From Acidobacteriota bacterium (lineage in GTDB: Bacteria > Acidobacteriota > Vicinamibacteria > Fen-336), in assembly GCA_003223555.1 (NCBI GenBank), contig QHVM01000024.1, positions 2,686-37,797 of the forward strand: a stretch of 35,112 bases of DNA, read 5' to 3'. The position numbers were made by a program, and so were the translations under genes. Positions 13,981-24,386 of this stretch are shown piece by piece. Within the stretch, counting starts at the first letter, position 1, and every line of letters begins with the position of its first letter. Under the pieces are notes generated by a model, which ran no database searches, was not told where the DNA came from, and saw only the letters and a list, made by a program, of their open reading frames with translations.

Positions 13981-15110
13981 CCGCCTCGCTCGACGACCTC
14001 CTGCGCGACTACGACGCCGAGGCGCCGCTCGAGCACGCCTTCACCATTCCCGCCTCGTGGTACGTCGACCCTCGTGTCTACGAGCTGGAGAAGAAGGCGG
14101 TCTTCGGCGGCTGGCAGGTGGTGGGCAGGCTCGACCAGGTGGAGCAGCCGGGCCAGTTCTTGACCGCGGACGTTGCCGGAGAGCCGATCGTCGTGGTGCG
14201 CGGCCGCGACGGCGGCCTGCGCGCTTTCTTCAACGTGTGCCGGCACCACGCGGCCGCGGTCGCGACCGGGGAGCAGGGGCAGGCCGCCTCCCTGCGCTGT
14301 CCCTACCACGGCTGGACGTACTCGCTGGAGGGCGAGCTGCGCGGGACTCCGGACTTCGACGGCGTGTGCGGCTTCGACCGGGCCAGGAACGGCCTGGTGC
14401 CGGCCCGCCTCGACACCTGGGAGAGCTTCATCTTCGTCCAGCTCGAGCCGGGACCGCCGCTCACGGAGTTCCTGGGGCGACTGCCGGAGAGGATCCGTCC
14501 CCTCGGTCTCCCCAGCTTCCATTTCGTGGAACGGAGGAAGTACGCGTTCGATTCCAACTGGAAGGTCTTCGTCGACAACTACCTGGACGGCGGATACCAC
14601 ATCCCATTCCTGCACAAGGGCCTCGACAGCGTGCTCGACTACGCCGAGTACACGATCGAGAACCAGGACCGCTTCTGCCTCCAGTCGAGCCCGGTCGTGG
14701 ACTCCGGCCGCGACGCCTCGACGGCCGCGGTGCGCAAGGGCGAGCGCGCGCTCTACTACTGGCTCTACCCCAACTTCATGATCAACTGGTACCAGGGCGT
14801 GATGGACACCAACCTGGTGCTGCCCCTGGCTGTCGACCGCACGCTCGTGGTCTTCGACTTCTACTTCGCGGATGTGACCGAGGGGTCCATGGCCCGCAAC
14901 CGGGCCAGCATCGACGTGGGGGAGCGCATCCAGGGCGAGGACACCGGCATCTGCGCCTCAGTCCAGCGCGGCCTCAACTCCCGCGCGTATCGCGCCGGGC
15001 GGCTGTCCGTCCGCCGCGAGGCGGGCGAGCAGCTCTTCCATCGGCTCCTCGCCGCCGACTTGCGGCGCGGCTTTGAGACGCAGGGCCAGCCTCTGCGTCG
15101 TCGGCGTTGA
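13977..15110 (+). CDS. Rieske-type ring-hydroxylating oxygenase, alpha-subunit-like
   Basis: This is a Rieske non-haem iron oxygenase of the type that includes choline and carnitine monooxygenases and aromatic dioxygenases. In 377 residues it has the [2Fe-2S] ligands C88-x-H90 (NVCRHHA) and C108-x2-H111 (RCPYHGW). The mononuclear iron site is H208 and H213 (GGYHIPFLH), with D200 in NWKVFVDNY as the probable bridging acid. A later EDTGICASVQRG stretch is typical of the family and probably holds the third iron ligand. The start is TTG at 13977 within TTGA, which overlaps the S9 stop. The substrate cannot be read from sequence, and no dedicated reductase or ferredoxin gene is adjacent. Confidence 0.88.
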   Translation: MTASLDDLLRDYDAEAPLEHAFTIPASWYVDPRVYELEKKAVFGGWQVVGRLDQVEQPGQFLTADVAGEPIVVVRGRDGGLRAFFNVCRHHAAAVATGEQGQAASLRCPYHGWTYSLEGELRGTPDFDGVCGFDRARNGLVPARLDTWESFIFVQLEPGPPLTEFLGRLPERIRPLGLPSFHFVERRKYAFDSNWKVFVDNYLDGGYHIPFLHKGLDSVLDYAEYTIENQDRFCLQSSPVVDSGRDASTAAVRKGERALYYWLYPNFMINWYQGVMDTNLVLPLAVDRTLVVFDFYFADVTEGSMARNRASIDVGERIQGEDTGICASVQRGLNSRAYRAGRLSVRREAGEQLFHRLLAADLRRGFETQGQPLRRRR

Positions 15111-15152
15111 TCCCTTCGCAGCGCTGGCCTTCCGATTGCATACCGGTACGGC

Positions 15153-15353
15153 ATGAGTCACGTGCCGATGCCCGATCCCTACCCGCACCCGGCTCCCTAC
15201 CCGGATCCGCGACCGGTTCCAGACCCCGCTCCCAAGCCCGCGCCCAACCCGCCCCGCGATCCCACCCCCCTTCCGCAGCCGAGCCTACGGCCCGACCGCG
15301 CGCCGAAACCAGCCCGAAATCCGTACGCACCAGCGCCGCCCTACGCCTTTTGA
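15153..15353 (+). CDS. Proline-rich small ORF between oxygenase and amidohydrolase
   Basis: A 66-residue frame from ATG 15153 encodes a protein with 27 prolines, largely as x-P dipeptide units (DPYPHPAPYPDPRPVPDPAP and so on). It has no Cys and no hydrophobic segment. Its TGA overlaps a TTG at 15350 that is the best start of the downstream secreted amidohydrolase. It could be a real small protein, a translated leader that senses proline supply or polyproline stalling, or an artefact of C-rich DNA. It has only isolated PP pairs, no PPP. No good Shine-Dalgarno is seen, and its third-position GC looks lower than that of the neighbouring genes, so I am unsure. Confidence 0.4.
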   Translation: MSHVPMPDPYPHPAPYPDPRPVPDPAPKPAPNPPRDPTPLPQPSLRPDRAPKPARNPYAPAPPYAF

Positions 15354-16594
15354 GGCGCGGCCTTGTCGCACTGACGCTGGCGGTCTTCTCCCCGGTCGCC
15401 GTCGTCACGGCAGAGGAGGCGGTGGCGCTACGGGCCGCCATCCTCCTTGACGGCCGGGGCGGCCGGCTCGAGGACGCCCGCGTCGTCGTCGAGGGCGCGC
15501 GCATCGTGAGCGTCGAGGCGGGCGCGGCGCGATTCGTCCCCGCTGGGGGCTCCCGGCTCTACGACTTGGCCGGCCTCACCCTCCTGCCGGGGCTCATCGA
15601 CGTTCACGCTCATCCCGCCTGGTACTTCAATCGCTCCGGCCGCCTCCATACCCCCCAGGACGGCGACACGCCCGCGCAGGGCGCCCTGGCCGAGGCCGGC
15701 AACCTCTACGCGACGCTCCGGGCCGGGTTCACGACGCTTCAGAGCCCCGGCGCGCCCGAGGACAAGGACGCCCGGGACGCGATCGCGCGGGGCGAGATCC
15801 CCGGTCCGCGACTGCTGACCTCGCTCGAGCCCTTGAATGAAAAGACGGGCGGACCGGAGGAGCTGCGCCGGGCGGTGTCGCAGCGGAAGGCGGAGGGCGC
15901 CGACTTCATCAAGATCTTCGCCTCCAAGAGCATCCGCGAGGGCGGCGGCCAGACCCTCAGCGGCGCCCAGCTCGAGGCGGCCTGCGGCGAGGCGCGCTCG
16001 CTCGGCCTCCGCACGCTCGTCCACGCCCACAGCGCCGAGAGCATCCGGGCCGCGGTGATGGCCGGTTGCACGCAGATCGAGCACGGCGTCTTCGCCACCG
16101 ACCAGGTGCTGCGGCTGATGGCCGAACGGGGGACCTATTTCGACCCCCAGTGCAGCCTCGTCTTCCGCAACTACCTCGACAACCGGGCGAAGTACGAGGG
16201 GATCGGCAACTACAACGAAGAAGGCTTCCGCGCCATGGAGAAGGCGATCCCGCTGGCGGTGGGCGTCCTCCGGCGCGCGCTGGCCACACCCGGGCTCCCG
16301 GTCGTCTTCGGCACCGACGCGGTCGCCGGGGCCCACGGCCGCAACGCCGAGGACCTCGCGTGCCGGGTGCAGGAGGGCGGCCAGCCGGCCATGGATGCGG
16401 TCGTGTCGGCGACCTCGCTCGCGGCGCGATCGCTCGGCCTGCAGGACGAGGTCGGCGTCCTCGCCCCGGGGATGCAGGCCGACATCGTCGCCGTCGAGGG
16501 AGATCCCTCGCGGGACGCCGCCGCGCTGCGGCGCGTGCGCTTCGTCATGAAGGCCGGCCGGGTGTACCGCAACGAGGCGGCGCCGTCGAAGTGA
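15350..16594 (+). CDS. Secreted metal-dependent amidohydrolase, prolidase/imidazolonepropionase-like
   Basis: This amidohydrolase-superfamily enzyme is close to the group that includes metal-dependent Xaa-Pro dipeptidases and imidazolonepropionase-like proteins. From TTG 15350 the product is 414 residues with a signal peptide (MRRGLVALTLAVFSPVAVVTA). The metal ligands are H86-x-H88 (DVHAHP), K188 (FIKIFAS, the usual carbamylated lysine), H225/H227 (VHAHS), H245 (IEHGVF) and D323 (FGTDA). The same frame is open back to a TTG at 15107 that overlaps the oxygenase stop. That start would put 81 low-complexity residues before the signal peptide, so I reject it. The stop overlaps the next GTG as GTGA. 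Substrate is inferred only from the neighbourhood. Confidence 0.85.
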   Translation: MRRGLVALTLAVFSPVAVVTAEEAVALRAAILLDGRGGRLEDARVVVEGARIVSVEAGAARFVPAGGSRLYDLAGLTLLPGLIDVHAHPAWYFNRSGRLHTPQDGDTPAQGALAEAGNLYATLRAGFTTLQSPGAPEDKDARDAIARGEIPGPRLLTSLEPLNEKTGGPEELRRAVSQRKAEGADFIKIFASKSIREGGGQTLSGAQLEAACGEARSLGLRTLVHAHSAESIRAAVMAGCTQIEHGVFATDQVLRLMAERGTYFDPQCSLVFRNYLDNRAKYEGIGNYNEEGFRAMEKAIPLAVGVLRRALATPGLPVVFGTDAVAGAHGRNAEDLACRVQEGGQPAMDAVVSATSLAARSLGLQDEVGVLAPGMQADIVAVEGDPSRDAAALRRVRFVMKAGRVYRNEAAPSK

Positions 16595-18798
16595 CGACGG
16601 ACGACGGCCTCCGGCGGGTCATCGGCTTCGGCGGCGGGCTGGCCGTCATCGTCGGCACGACCATCGGCAGCGGCGTCTTCCGCAAGCCGACGACACTCGC
16701 GCGCGACGTCGGCGACCCGGCGACCATCCTGGGCTTGTGGGTGGCCTTCGGCCTGGTGAGCCTCTGCGGCGCCCTGGCCCTGGCCGAGCTCAGCTCGATG
16801 CTTCCCCGGACCGGGGGCGTCTACGTCTACCTGAGGGCGGCCTACGGCGACGCGGCGGCCTTCGTCTTCGGCTGGCTCTACCTGCTGGTGACGACGCCGG
16901 CGACCAACGGCGCGCTGGCCACCTTCTTCGGTGAGCTGATCCTGGGCCTGGCCCGCGTCCCGGCCGGGCCCGCCTCACCGTGGCGGGTGCCGGCCGTGGC
17001 CGGGCTCACCGTCCTCGTCCTGACCGCGGTGAACCTGCTCGGCGCCCGGATGGGCTCGGCGGTCCAGACCGTGTTCACGCTCATCAAGGTCGGCGCGCTC
17101 CTCGTCTTGATGGTCGTCTCGTTCACGCTGCCCGAGGGCAGCTTCGGCCACCTGGCGCCCCTGCCGGGCGGGCCCCGGGCGCTCGGCGTCGGCGCGGCGT
17201 CGGTCATCTGGGCCTACGACGGATGGATCTCGGTCAGCATGATCGCGGGCGAGGTGGTCGCCGCCGAGCGGCTCATGCGGCGGATCATCATCGCCGGCAT
17301 GCTGGCGATCGCGCTGCTCTACGTGGGAGCCAACGTCGGCTACTTCTTCGCGATGCCGGTCGGGGAGATGGCGCGCCAGGCCGCCGGCGTGCCCCAGACG
17401 ATCATGGCCGCGCGTTTCGGGACCCGGGGCGCGGTCCTCATCAGCCTGGCCATCCTGTGCAGCGTCGTCGGGGCGCTCAACGGGAACGTGCTCACCCGTC
17501 CCCGGGTGCCCTACGCGCTGGCGCGCGACGGGCTGGCCTTCCCGTTCCTGGGCCGGGCCCATCCGCGGTGGGCGACGCCGTACGTCTCGATCCTCATCCA
17601 GTCGGCGGCCACCGTCGTGCTCGTCGCCCTGCTGCGCGACTTCGACCGGCTGACGACGTACTTCGTGGTCGTCGAGTGGTCGGCCCTGCTGTTCGCGGTG
17701 GCCGCGGTGATCGTCCTCCGGCACCGGCGGCCCGACGCGCCGCGGCCGTACCGCACTCCAGGCTATCCCTGGGTACCCCTGGTCTTCCTCGCCGGGACGC
17801 TGGCCGGGCTGGTCGCGATCGTCTGGGGCGAGATCGACCGGGCCTCGCCCAACTACTCGCCGCTGTGGGGCCTGCTCCTCGCCGGGGCGGGGTTTCCGGT
17901 GTTCGCGATCTGGCGCCGGTCGCTCCGTCCTTCGCCGGCCGCCGCGGGTCTCGTCGTCGCGGGAAGCCTCGGCCTGCTGCTTGCCGGCTGCGGCCCCGCC
18001 CGGCCGCCGAGCGGCGCGCCCTCGGCGCCCGCCCCGTCGACGTCCCCGGCGGAGTGGACGCTCGCCTGGAGCGACGAGTTCGAGGGGCCGGCCGGCGCAT
18101 CGGTGGACCCGGGCCGGTGGGTGGCCGAGGTCGGCGGCCACGGCTGGGGGAACAACGAGCTCGAGTACTACACCGACCGGACGCGGAACGCCTACCTGGA
18201 CGGGGGCGGCTCGCTGGTGATCGAGGCCCTCCGCGAGCGCTTCGAGGGCCAGGGCGTCGTGCGGGAGTACACCTCGGCCCGCCTCAAGACCCAGGGGCGG
18301 TTCGAGCAGGCCTACGGGCGCTTCGAAGCCCGCATCAAGATCCCGCGCGGCCAGGGAATGTGGCCCGCGTTCTGGCTGCTGGGCACCGATATCCCGACGG
18401 TGGGCTGGCCGCGCTGCGGGGAGATCGACGTCATGGAGAACATCGGGCGCGAGCCGGCCGCGGTGCATGGCTCGATGCACGGCCCGGGCTATTCGGGCGG
18501 GTCTTCGGTGACCGGCACCTATGCCCTCCTGGGTGGCGAGGCGTTCGCCGACGCCTTCCACGACTTCGCGGTCGAGTGGGAGCCGGCCATCGTCCGCTTC
18601 TTCGTGGACGGCCGGCTCTACGAGACGCGCACCCCCGCCGACCTGCGGCCGGGACAGGTCTGGGTCTTCGACCATCCCTTCTTCGTGATCCTGAACGTGG
18701 CCGTCGGAGGAGACTGGCCGGGCGCTCCCGACGCAACGACGGCGTTTCCCCAGACCATGCTCGTCGACTACGTGCGCGTCTACCGCCGCGCGGGCTAG
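16591..18798 (+). CDS. APC-family amino acid permease fused in frame to a GH16 glycoside hydrolase
   Basis: One uninterrupted frame of 735 codons begins at GTG 16591, within GTGA overlapping the amidohydrolase stop. Residues 1 to ~443 form a 12-helix APC-superfamily permease: GTTIGSGVFRKP in helix 1, ELSSMLPRTGGVYVYLRAAYG after helix 2, and PYRTPGYPWVPL before helix 11. It continues without a stop through RRSLRPSPAAAG into a thirteenth hydrophobic segment with lipobox LLAGC (C467). A GH16 beta-glucanase/laminarinase domain follows, with catalytic motif EIDVMEN (E611 and E616), NNELEYYTDRTRNA and WPAFWLLG. An in-frame GTG at 17899 would give the GH16 part its own lipoprotein signal peptide (MFAIWRRSLRP then a hydrophobic run to C). 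A true fusion and two nested products are both possible. Confidence 0.85.
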   Translation: MTTDDGLRRVIGFGGGLAVIVGTTIGSGVFRKPTTLARDVGDPATILGLWVAFGLVSLCGALALAELSSMLPRTGGVYVYLRAAYGDAAAFVFGWLYLLVTTPATNGALATFFGELILGLARVPAGPASPWRVPAVAGLTVLVLTAVNLLGARMGSAVQTVFTLIKVGALLVLMVVSFTLPEGSFGHLAPLPGGPRALGVGAASVIWAYDGWISVSMIAGEVVAAERLMRRIIIAGMLAIALLYVGANVGYFFAMPVGEMARQAAGVPQTIMAARFGTRGAVLISLAILCSVVGALNGNVLTRPRVPYALARDGLAFPFLGRAHPRWATPYVSILIQSAATVVLVALLRDFDRLTTYFVVVEWSALLFAVAAVIVLRHRRPDAPRPYRTPGYPWVPLVFLAGTLAGLVAIVWGEIDRASPNYSPLWGLLLAGAGFPVFAIWRRSLRPSPAAAGLVVAGSLGLLLAGCGPARPPSGAPSAPAPSTSPAEWTLAWSDEFEGPAGASVDPGRWVAEVGGHGWGNNELEYYTDRTRNAYLDGGGSLVIEALRERFEGQGVVREYTSARLKTQGRFEQAYGRFEARIKIPRGQGMWPAFWLLGTDIPTVGWPRCGEIDVMENIGREPAAVHGSMHGPGYSGGSSVTGTYALLGGEAFADAFHDFAVEWEPAIVRFFVDGRLYETRTPADLRPGQVWVFDHPFFVILNVAVGGDWPGAPDATTAFPQTMLVDYVRVYRRAG

Positions 18799-18836: not shown

Positions 18837-20018
18837 ATGGCCCGCGTGAGACAAGCCATGGCCTGCCTCGTCGCCCTCGCCGCCGTCGCCTCGGCCTCCA
18901 CCCGGCATGGCTCCGCCGCCGCGCCGGGCGGAACCGTGATGGTCTACGTGGGCACGTACACGGACCATGGAAGCGCCAGCAAGGGGATCTACCGCCTCCG
19001 CCTCGACCTCAAGACCGGCGCGCTCGAAGCCGCCGGCAGCCCCGCCGAGTCGGTGAGCCCGTCCTTCCTGGCCCTCCATCCCAGCGGCCGGTTCCTGTAC
19101 GCCGTCAACGAGGCCTCCACTCCGCCGAAGGACGAGGGCGCGGTCAGCGCATTCGCGGTCGACGCGCGCACGGGGGAGCTGACGGCGCTCAACCGGCAGT
19201 CCTCACGCGGCGGGGGACCCTGCCACCTCTCCCTCGACGCCGAGGGCCGGCACGTCCTCGTCGCGAACTACGGCGGCGGCAACGTCGCGGTGCTGCCGGT
19301 CGAGGCCGACGGCCGCCTCGATCCGGCCACGACGTTCGTCCAGCACCAAGGACACGGCGCGGACCCCCGCCGCCAGAAGGCCCCGCATGCCCATTACATC
19401 GACCTCGACCGGGCCAACCGCTTCGCCCTGGTGGCGGACCTCGGCCTCGACGAGGTGCTGGTCTACCGGTTCGACGCCGCGACCGGCGCCCTGACCCCGA
19501 ACGCCCCGGCGGCCGCCCACCTGGCGCCGGGAGCGGGACCGCGCCACCTGGCCCTGCATCCGGACGGGCGCCATGCCTACGTCATCAACGAGATGGCTTC
19601 CACGATCACCGCCTTCGCGTACGACGCGCGGGCCGGCACGCTGTCCGAGCTGCAGACCCTGTCCACCCTCCCGGCCGACTTCCACGGAGACAACAGCACG
19701 GCCGAGATCGCGGTCCGGCCCGACGGCCGGTTCGTCTACGGCTCGAACCGGGGCCACGACAGCATCGCCGTCTTCGCCGTCGACGCCGTGACCGGCAAGC
19801 TCGCCGCGGCCGGCCACCAGCCGACGCTCGGCAAGACGCCCCGCAACTTCGCCATCGACCCCAGCGGCGCCTACCTGCTGGCCGCCAACCAGGATTCGGA
19901 CACGATCACGGTCTTCCGCATCGACCGGACGAGCGGGGCGCTGTCGCCGGTCGGCAGCCCCGTGCCCGTGCCGCGCCCGGTCTGCGTGCTGTTTCAGGCG
20001 CCGATCAGCCGCCGGTAG
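18837..20018 (+). CDS. Secreted lactonase-type seven-bladed beta-propeller (6-phosphogluconolactonase-like)
   Basis: The 393-residue protein belongs to the lactonase/YbhE-type propeller family (PF10282), whose founding member hydrolyses 6-phosphogluconolactone. It begins with a signal-like segment (MACLVALAAVASAS) and the family opening VYVGTYTDHGSASKGIYRLRLD. Blade repeats such as PSFLALHPSGRFLYAVNE, GPRHLALHPDGRHAYVINE and TPRNFAIDPSGAYLLAANQ follow. Export makes a role in the cytosolic pentose phosphate pathway unlikely, so the true substrate is uncertain. The ATG at 18837 is used. A GTG at 18846, 7 nt after TAAGAT, would fit the leaderless layout seen elsewhere here. The last 25 nt overlap the convergent Spy-like gene. 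Confidence 0.85.
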   Translation: MARVRQAMACLVALAAVASASTRHGSAAAPGGTVMVYVGTYTDHGSASKGIYRLRLDLKTGALEAAGSPAESVSPSFLALHPSGRFLYAVNEASTPPKDEGAVSAFAVDARTGELTALNRQSSRGGGPCHLSLDAEGRHVLVANYGGGNVAVLPVEADGRLDPATTFVQHQGHGADPRRQKAPHAHYIDLDRANRFALVADLGLDEVLVYRFDAATGALTPNAPAAAHLAPGAGPRHLALHPDGRHAYVINEMASTITAFAYDARAGTLSELQTLSTLPADFHGDNSTAEIAVRPDGRFVYGSNRGHDSIAVFAVDAVTGKLAAAGHQPTLGKTPRNFAIDPSGAYLLAANQDSDTITVFRIDRTSGALSPVGSPVPVPRPVCVLFQAPISRR

Positions 20019-21539: not shown

Positions 21540-22679
21540 ATGATCCGGTTCGGGCGTTCCCTGGGCCGACGGGAGTGGGCGGCGCTGACCGCGCTCGGGC
21601 TCGGAGCCGGCATCGTGGTCATGACGGCGCTCACTTCGCACGGGGCCGAGGTGCTCCTGCCGGGGATGCCCCCGCCGCTCGATCCCCACGACGTGTATGC
21701 CGGCGCCCGGCCGGGTGACCTGAGCCCGGCCGTGCGGGGCGTCGTCTCCCGGGTTTACGTGCCGAACAGCCGCAAGGCGAGCGTCGACGTCATCGATCCC
21801 GCCACCTACAAGATCGTCGAGCACTTCAAGGTCGGCAAGGAGCCGCAGCACGTGACGCCCTCCTACGACCTCAAGACGCTCTGGGTGCTGGCGGACAAGG
21901 GCAACAGCCTCACCCGCATCGACCCCGTCACGGGACGGAGCGAGCAGACGATCCCGGTCGCGGATCCCTACAACATGTACTATACGCCCGACGGCAAGTA
22001 CGCGATCGTCGTGGCGGAACGGAAGAAGCGGCTCGACTTCCGGGACGCCCAGACCATGGCCATCGTCAACCCGCTGCCGGTGCCGTGCCGCGGGGTCGAC
22101 CACATGGACTTCTCCGCGAGCGGGCGCTACCTGATCGCGAGCTGCGAGTTCTCGGCCGAGATGCTCAAGGTCGACGTGGCCGCGGAGAAGCTGCTGGGGA
22201 CGCTGAAGCTCCCCGGCCGGGCCATGCCCCAGGACGTGCGGCTGTCCCCGGACGGCAGCGCGTTCTTCGTGGCCGACATGATGACCGGCGGCGTGTTCGT
22301 GATCGACGGCGACGCGTTCCGGATCCTCGGCTTCATCCCGACCGGCCGCGGCACCCACGGGCTGTACTTCAGCCGCGACTCGAAGTGGCTCTACGCCTCG
22401 AACCGGGGCGAGGGGACCATCTCGGTGATCGACGTGCACACGCGCCGGGTCCATGTGAAGTGGCAGATCCCGGGCGGGGGCAGCCCCGACATGGGCGGCG
22501 TCTCCGCCGATGGCCGCGTTCTCTGGCTCTCCGGCCGCTACAACTCCGAGGTCTACGCGATCGACACCGCCGACGGCCGGCTCCTGGCCCGCATCAAGGT
22601 CGGCAAGGAGCCCCACGGCCTGTGCGTCTGGCCCCAGCCCGGCCGCTACAGCCTGGGCCACACCGGCATCATGCGCTGA
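21540..22679 (+). CDS. Exported YncE-like beta-propeller protein
   Basis: The 379-residue protein has an N-terminal hydrophobic segment (ALTALGLGAGIVVMTALTS) suggesting export or membrane anchoring. Propeller repeats of the YVTN/YncE type follow: VYVPNSRKASVDVIDPATYKIV, FFVADMMTGGVFVIDGDAF, LYASNRGEGTISVIDVHTRRV and LWLSGRYNSEVYAIDTADGRL. Such propellers occur in periplasmic binding proteins and in accessory proteins of redox systems. No catalytic residues can be named. The ATG at 21540 has AGGGGGGAG 6 nt upstream. The gene converges on the FAD oxidoreductase with 24 bp between stops. Confidence 0.8.
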   Translation: MIRFGRSLGRREWAALTALGLGAGIVVMTALTSHGAEVLLPGMPPPLDPHDVYAGARPGDLSPAVRGVVSRVYVPNSRKASVDVIDPATYKIVEHFKVGKEPQHVTPSYDLKTLWVLADKGNSLTRIDPVTGRSEQTIPVADPYNMYYTPDGKYAIVVAERKKRLDFRDAQTMAIVNPLPVPCRGVDHMDFSASGRYLIASCEFSAEMLKVDVAAEKLLGTLKLPGRAMPQDVRLSPDGSAFFVADMMTGGVFVIDGDAFRILGFIPTGRGTHGLYFSRDSKWLYASNRGEGTISVIDVHTRRVHVKWQIPGGGSPDMGGVSADGRVLWLSGRYNSEVYAIDTADGRLLARIKVGKEPHGLCVWPQPGRYSLGHTGIMR

Positions 22680-22703
22680 AGGCGGCCCGCGCCGGCGCGA
22701 GAC

Positions 22704-24386
22704 CTAGGGCGGCGCCGCGGGAAGCGGGCGGGCCCGGCTCTCACCCGGCCACGAGTATCCGGCTTGCCGCAGGAAGTCGTTGGCGAAGACGCCCGAAGGA
22801 TCGACCTGGTCGATGAACGGCTGGAAGAGCGCCCGCCGGTCGGCGTTGGCGGTCAGCGTGACCGCGTTGGAGAAGATGTCGCTGCGGTTCTTGCCCAGGT
22901 GCGGCCGCGCCCGGTGGTCGGCGATCAGGTGGAGCACGATCTCGGCGTAGGGGGCCTGATAGGCGGCCAGCTGCTCCGCGGAGAAGGCGTAGGGCCAGTA
23001 GATCGGGAACTCGACGTGATACATCCGCTCGCCGGCCGGGACGCCGCTGCCGGCGGCGGCCGAAGCGAGCAGGGTGTCGTTGTTGGCCCGGTCGGCCCGC
23101 ATCACCACCCCGATGTCGGGGTTGTAGAGCGACCGCTCCTGCAGCCGTGATTTCACGTAGGCGAGCGCGGCGTCGATCTCCGACTCGGGGATTGCCACCT
23201 CCCAGTCCAGGTTGGAGATCTTGCGCTGGGAGATGCCCCGGAACGTGATCTCGATCATCCGGTGGGCGTAGCCGACCGCCTCCTTGCCGGCCTGGGGCGT
23301 CCCGTCGGGCGCGGTCCATTCGATCCACGGATGCGTCTGGCGGAACCCGTAGAGGAGCCGCTCCCACCGCCGGGCGGCCTCGGCGTCGCAAGCGGACTGC
23401 TGGAGCACGGGCACCGCGAGCTTCTTGAAGGCGTCGGGCAGGTCGGGCGTGAACAACGTCATCCGCGCGTCGTCGGCGGTCACGGGGTCGGTCGTCTCGC
23501 GGCCGCAGGTGACGTCCATGCGGCCGACGGAGTTGAAGTAGGTGGCGAACATGTACTCGCACTGGTCGGCGATCGCCTTCATCCCGCCGGGGCGGAAGAG
23601 GTCGGCGTCGGTGAAGGTGAGGATCCGCTGCCGCACGTGGAACTGGTCGCGGATCCTCAGGCGGAGCCGGACCGTCATCCCGAGCATCCCCAGGTCGCCG
23701 CGCACCGCCCGCCACCGGTCCGGGGAGGTGTCCTCGGCGTCGTAGGTGCGGATGCGGCCGCGGGGGCCCATCTTGTCGATCGAGACGACCAGCGAGGAGA
23801 CGGTCGACGAACCCGCGGCATTCGATCCATGCCCGCCCACCGCCACGAACCCGCCGATGCTGATGTCGCCGTAACCCGGGACGTTGTACCCGAGCGCCTT
23901 CCCGCGCGCGTGCAGATACTCGAGGATGTCCCAGATGTGGGCCCCGGCCTCGACGCTGACCGTCTCCTGTCCCTTGTAGGTCTCGATCCCCAGGATGCGG
24001 GTGAGGTCCCGGGTGCTGATGATGTTGCCGTCCTCGACGCAGACGGCCTTCGAGGCGGTGTGCACCGTGCCGTTGACCCGCACGTGCTTGCCCCGGGCGA
24101 CGCTCCGGCGCATCTCGCTCTGGGCGTCCTGGATCGTCGCGGGATGGAAGATCGTGGTGTCCGGACAGGAGACGGCGAGGTTGTAATAGGGCTTCACGTG
24201 CGTCTGGCCGTCGACGCAGTCGCCGGGACAGGTGGCGGCGTTCTCGCCGAGGAGGCGGTCGCAGGTGCCGTTCTCGCACGTCAAGGCGAGCACCGTCCAG
24301 CTCGGGCAGGTGTCGTCGGCGCGGGCGCGCGCGCCTCCGGCGAGCGCGGCCGACAGGACGGCGAGCTCGAGGAGGCGGCTTCTCAT
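22704..24386 (-). CDS. Secreted VAO-family FAD oxidoreductase with Cys-rich N-terminus
   Basis: The 560-residue protein has a signal peptide ending near ARA. A six-cysteine region follows (C27 to C74), including CENGTCDRLLGENAATCPGDC, a motif like those in secreted Cys-rich modules. Next is an FAD-binding domain of the VAO/p-cresol-methylhydroxylase fold: RVNGTVHT, where H109 occupies the site of the covalent 8-alpha-histidyl FAD link, and NVPGYGDISIGGFVAVGGHG. The C-terminal half resembles sugar-lactone/alditol oxidases, with RPHLGK near the end where L-gulonolactone oxidases have RPHWGK. The likely reaction is oxidation of an alditol or aldonolactone. The ATG at 24386 lacks a clear Shine-Dalgarno. 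Confidence 0.82.
   Translation of the reverse strand: MRSRLLELAVLSAALAGGARARADDTCPSWTVLALTCENGTCDRLLGENAATCPGDCVDGQTHVKPYYNLAVSCPDTTIFHPATIQDAQSEMRRSVARGKHVRVNGTVHTASKAVCVEDGNIISTRDLTRILGIETYKGQETVSVEAGAHIWDILEYLHARGKALGYNVPGYGDISIGGFVAVGGHGSNAAGSSTVSSLVVSIDKMGPRGRIRTYDAEDTSPDRWRAVRGDLGMLGMTVRLRLRIRDQFHVRQRILTFTDADLFRPGGMKAIADQCEYMFATYFNSVGRMDVTCGRETTDPVTADDARMTLFTPDLPDAFKKLAVPVLQQSACDAEAARRWERLLYGFRQTHPWIEWTAPDGTPQAGKEAVGYAHRMIEITFRGISQRKISNLDWEVAIPESEIDAALAYVKSRLQERSLYNPDIGVVMRADRANNDTLLASAAAGSGVPAGERMYHVEFPIYWPYAFSAEQLAAYQAPYAEIVLHLIADHRARPHLGKNRSDIFSNAVTLTANADRRALFQPFIDQVDPSGVFANDFLRQAGYSWPGESRARPLPAAPP

Follow-up and report, generated by a model that had tools for sequence, protein, structure and literature searches.

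Does an open reading frame that carries an amino-acid permease and a glycoside hydrolase without an intervening stop represent a real gene fusion, and if so, how would such a chain be made and arranged in the membrane? The question is raised by a plus-strand frame at positions 16,591-18,798 of the window, the whole 35,112-nucleotide stretch of Acidobacteriota DNA analysed here. The original prediction, made from the sequence, was that an APC permease and a GH16 glucanase share this frame, either as an unusual transporter-hydrolase fusion or as a nested gene produced by internal initiation.

The fused frame and its parts

Translation gives 735 residues that are free of stops until the TAG at 18,796-18,798. 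That both proteins lie in one uninterrupted frame is confirmed by this translation, by Pfam, by an AlphaFold2 model and by a copy in a second species. The permease part occupies residues 1-447 (16,591-17,931) and is complete, as had been claimed: AA_permease_2 (PF13520) matches residues 17-426 (E 7.7e-52, 177.1 bits against a cut-off of 27), the model has 12 confident helices, and the end agrees with the ends of orthologous permeases, which share an IWRR-type motif. The best solved match is the bacterial LAT transporter BasC (PDB 6f2g, 9h76; 30% identity, TM-score 0.85 over the target), followed, in sequence and fold, by the light chains LAT1, LAT2, b0,+AT and xCT. Unlike the protein described here, BasC stands alone, with neither a thirteenth helix nor an enzyme domain. 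A lysine in TM5 and a tyrosine in TM7 are conserved in LATs (PMC6472337); both are present, Lys166 and Tyr244 aligning with Lys154 and Tyr236 of BasC. The score against TIGR00911, the L-type amino acid transporter model, is 189.6 bits where the NCBI curated cut-off is 701.8, so that the permease is related to this family and, on this model, not a member of it.

The GH16 part, of the laminarinase type, extends over residues 488-733 (18,052-18,789), approximate limits set by comparison with the solved endo-beta-1,3-glucanase of Nocardiopsis (PDB 2hyk; 62% identity, E 3.2e-95). Glyco_hydro_16 matches residues 558-718 (E 1.4e-24, 86.9 bits against a cut-off of 22). The catalytic ExDxxE motif is intact, as predicted: EIDVMEN begins at residue 611 (Glu611, Asp613 and Glu616; 18,421-18,441) and aligns with EIDIMEN of 2hyk. 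The fold and the motif are shared with 2hyk and related GH16 laminarinases, and 2hyk differs in being a separate enzyme with no carrier attached. From this homology the fused domain probably splits beta-1,3-glucan.

At the junction the permease end, IWRRSLRP, passes directly into AAAGLVVAGSLGLLLAGC, in which the hydrophobic core of a lipoprotein signal and its lipobox can be recognised. The thirteenth hydrophobic segment (residues 451-468; 17,941-17,994) is evident from hydropathy, follows the arginines of RRSLRP, and is modelled as a helix at 451-465 that is shorter than those of the permease and of moderate confidence. Separate orthologues of the GH16 gene start at this point with a signal peptide. 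Judged from the sequences, the segment is the former signal peptide of a GH16 gene. The predicted lipobox was found as LAGC from residue 464 (17,980-17,991), ending in Cys467. A linker rich in Pro, Ser and Ala follows (residues 469-487; 17,995-18,051). AlphaFold2 treats residues 466-487 as disordered (pLDDT below 50) and gives the fusion, which ends in a GH16 sandwich, a pTM of 0.66; with such a linker, no fixed arrangement of permease and GH16 is predicted.

The frame lies between two plus-strand genes, an amidohydrolase upstream (15,107-16,594, exact start uncertain; Pfam Amidohydro_1, E 7.8e-31) and a 7-bladed beta-propeller lactonase downstream (18,858-20,018; Pfam Lactonase, E 5.9e-130). 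The TGA stop of the amidohydrolase overlaps the GTG start of the fusion (GTGA at 16,591-16,594), which suggests translational coupling within a three-gene operon.

Conservation and separate ancestry of the halves

When the genomes of 84,980 species were scanned, one other match among the best 80 was fused over its full length. It comes from the metagenome-assembled genome of Acidobacteria bacterium AA35 (contig QHVJ01000231.1), the only other species of the window's genus among the genomes compared, and is 79-80% identical over residues 4-732 in a 736-codon frame without stops. EIDVMEN is conserved in it, and the order amidohydrolase, fusion, lactonase is kept, the flanking orthologues being 72% and 74% identical, respectively. 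The same uninterrupted frame in AA35 indicates that the fused frame is more than chance. The original prediction had proposed a search of relatives for the same junction and held that close homologues always encoding two genes would speak against a fusion; the closest homologue is itself fused. Both genomes, from soil bacteria, are draft metagenome bins, in which a stop might have been lost, or two genes run together, through an error of assembly or sequencing. The occurrence of the same fusion in two species, at this level of identity, on separate contigs and with conserved flanking genes, refutes such an error for practical purposes, and we reject it.

No further permease-GH16 fusion was found in 193 genomes of the class or in 396 of the phylum. 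Genera elsewhere in the family encode the two halves separately. The permease (G003, G009 and G010; 69-77% identity) has its own stop after an IWRR-type motif, and the GH16 gene (G005, G009 and G010; 63-78%) has its own signal peptide. G009 and G010 thus hold both halves, separate and unlinked, while G003 holds the permease alone and G005 the GH16 gene alone. An ancestral permease-GH16 gene pair was not found, the halves never occurring together in the stretches of 4-19 kb examined, some of which end at contig edges.

Between the window and AA35, at a dS of about 0.64, dN/dS is about 0.18 for the permease and about 0.20 for GH16, and rises to about 0.57-0.75 in the stretches at the junction. 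Three indels at the junction, of 1, 1 and 4 whole codons, all keep the frame; the four-codon difference is a deletion in the AA35 linker. The low ratios suggest that both domains are functional and that the joint between them is loosely constrained.

A second permease-glycosidase pair

The open-frame lengths of the other APC permeases in the window's genome revealed a second, independent fusion of an APC permease and a glycosidase, a minus-strand frame of 1322 residues (contig C70, 39,203-43,168; 701-4,669 of locus L143). AA_permease_2 at residues 30-416 is followed by RARLERAWPFAGATTLLLALAAPAGA and then by a GH2 exo-beta-D-glucosaminidase (nearest solved structure 2vzs), which by homology probably splits glucosamine oligomers. 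AA35 carries this fusion too, interrupted only by a contig end (contig C544), with 88% identity in the permease and 68% in GH2. Separate permeases of this type occur in many genomes of the class, and in five genomes, G007, G009, G012, G076 and G107, GH2 is a separate gene that has a start and a signal peptide of its own. The design is the same as in the GH16 fusion, a permease end, a former signal peptide and an exported glycosidase; the APC permease and the glycosidase family are different. Within one genus, therefore, the same kind of joint connects two unrelated glycosidases with two different APC permeases.

A general loss of stop codons in the genome was considered and rejected, as the other APC and MFS carriers lack exported enzyme tails. 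The two genomes gave 16 and 19 APC matches, of which the GH16 and GH2 loci alone have such tails, the other long tails being cytoplasmic in appearance when judged by eye; about 26 MFS carriers had none. In about 717 kb, 30 frames of polytopic proteins with long tails included no further Pfam-recognisable transporter-exoenzyme fusion, some of these frames having no Pfam match. Since the fusion is conserved in the genus and the design is repeated, we regard it as a real gene fusion and not a sequencing accident: its domains are ordinary, their combination is new, and the second instance makes it more notable. No description of an APC-GH16 fusion was found in the literature searched, of which coverage was partial.

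Some other frames in these genomes are recorded here as observations in their own right. Three APC-family proteins, on contigs C98 (L199) and C151 (L191) of the window's genome and C199 (L206) of AA35, have tails of 180-270 residues that look cytoplasmic and are possibly regulatory. An APC homologue on contig C77 of the window's genome (20,500-26,500; L147) is in two pieces, at 22,620-23,168 and 23,219-24,037, and an in-frame TAA in the second piece points to a possible broken gene or an assembly error. A frame of 742 residues (L229, 10,996-13,221) matches no Pfam family; about 13 membrane segments are predicted in it, and its tail measures 260 residues.

A real fusion might still be a neutral one, in which a stop codon was lost within an operon and the longer product is tolerated without benefit. 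The relaxed junction and the restriction of the fusion to one genus are compatible with this, and long open frames are to be expected in sequence so rich in GC. The fusion has nevertheless been kept in both species over the divergence given above, and the event was repeated with a second APC-glycosidase pair while other carriers examined were spared; we consider neutral loss unlikely.

The second pair also bears on whether GH16 is mainly made as a separate lipoprotein from an internal start, the readthrough frame being incidental. The original prediction was that the in-frame GTG at residue 437 (17,899-17,901) gives GH16 an independent lipoprotein signal. This is so in the window, where MFAIWRRSLRPSPAAAGLVVAGSLGLLLAGC would read as a typical lipoprotein signal and LLAGC becomes N-terminal only with a start at 17,899. 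It does not extend to AA35, which has GTC in place of this codon and a junction, WRRLKPPVAVAMLVAGMSAVLGPGC, that is hydrophobic with a broken lipobox (LGPGC). The in-frame ATG and GTG codons of AA35 fall within the hydrophobic stretch and provide no charged n-region; only a CTG would give one. A nested gene is thus not the conserved explanation. Anti-Shine-Dalgarno pairing at the GTG in the window lies between the best tenth and the best quarter of random sites and is not distinctive. The GH2 fusion of the window's genome offers no such start: from helix 12 to the enzyme body there is no ATG, GTG or TTG that would provide GH2 with a signal, and where AA35 has a TTG this genome has GGC. Moreover, because the halves share one frame, every ribosome that starts on the permease will necessarily produce the fusion, to which initiation at an internal site could at most add another protein. 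The two alternatives of the original prediction have accordingly parted: the transporter-hydrolase fusion is real, and the nested gene has become improbable.

Topology and fate of the chain

Both ends of APC carriers lie inside the cell (PMC4192586, for xCT). Together with the arginines before the thirteenth hydrophobic segment, which fit the positive-inside rule, this leads one to expect that the segment directs the glycosidase into the periplasm, and supports the earlier proposal that GH16 lies outside the cytoplasm. We envisage that a LAT-like APC permease gene lost its stop codon and came to read into a formerly separate gene for an exported GH16 enzyme. Once the permease had inserted its 12 helices, its C-terminus would lie in the cytoplasm; the former signal peptide, together with the arginine-rich stretch, would serve as helix 13, and Sec would carry GH16 to the periplasm.

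In their sequence the former signal peptides still resemble cleavable ones. Candidate sites are the LLAGC of the window's GH16 fusion and an AGA-type, signal peptidase I-like site that the GH2 fusion has in both species, where AGA precedes ADP or EE. The internal signal peptide would most likely still be a substrate of signal peptidase in at least part of the chains, and the enzyme would stay tethered in chains that are not cut. A precedent exists in the cytochrome b/c1 precursor FbcH of Bradyrhizobium, where a polytopic protein is followed by an internal signal peptide that is cut, so that one gene gives two proteins. As in the fusion, a polytopic membrane protein is in frame with an exported protein by way of an internal signal peptide; FbcH differs in belonging to respiratory complex III, in its experimentally known cleavage and in having no sequence relation to the fusion. 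Given the cleavable-looking signals and this precedent, we favour, with reservations, a transporter-exoenzyme polyprotein, in which the internal signal peptide probably exports the enzyme and is possibly cut by signal peptidase. The fusion would then secure matched synthesis, with carrier and exoenzyme made in equal numbers. Counted against this reading are the absence of an obvious substrate common to the halves (amino acids and beta-1,3-glucan), the restriction to two species, both known as metagenome bins, the lack of conservation of the lipobox and the usable internal start in the window. That the fused pair takes up amino acids or amino sugars released from fungal walls is only a guess.

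The main rival to the polyprotein is a chain that remains uncut, in which helix 13 permanently anchors the glucanase beside the permease in the inner membrane. This would resemble the heteromeric amino-acid transporters of animals, in which an SLC7 light chain is paired with an SLC3 heavy chain, 4F2hc or rBAT, the likeness being a LAT-type 12-helix permease, one helix and a glycosidase-fold ectodomain (PMC6472337, PMC4192586). The persistence of the fusion in AA35, where there is no lipobox, is consistent with a tether, as are the closeness of the permease to BasC and LAT1-type light chains and the shared lysine and tyrosine. Against it, the linker is of low confidence and no fixed arrangement is predicted, and the GH2 fusion keeps its signal peptidase I-like site in both species. 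On balance a permanent tether seems doubtful.

The fusion parallels the heteromeric architecture and is not one of its members. The animal transporters consist of two chains, joined by a disulfide that involves the light chain's TM3-TM4 loop, and the fusion of one; the translated permease has no cysteine in that loop. The 4F2hc heavy chain has one helix and a glucosidase-like TIM-barrel ectodomain that lacks catalytic residues (PMC4192586); GH16 is a jelly roll, lies on the same chain as the permease and keeps its catalytic residues. Heavy chains first appear in metazoans (PMC6472337).

We tentatively suggest, as a possibility somewhat short of an even chance, that this Acidobacteriota genus has repeatedly built permease-glycosidase polyproteins in which a signal peptide became helix 13. 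These would either be cut by signal peptidase at the internal signal, yielding carrier and enzyme in matched amounts, or remain tethered, a bacterial one-chain version of the LAT and heavy-chain pair of animals. The transporter-exoenzyme design occurs twice in the genus, with unrelated enzyme families. If made as one chain, the protein would be a natural case of an inner-membrane carrier that uses an internal signal peptide to export and dose a polysaccharide-degrading enzyme as its partner. With it one could examine directly how signal peptidase handles a signal that follows twelve helices, and whether the association of a LAT-type carrier with a glycosidase-fold ectodomain, formed by two chains in animals, arose separately in bacteria.
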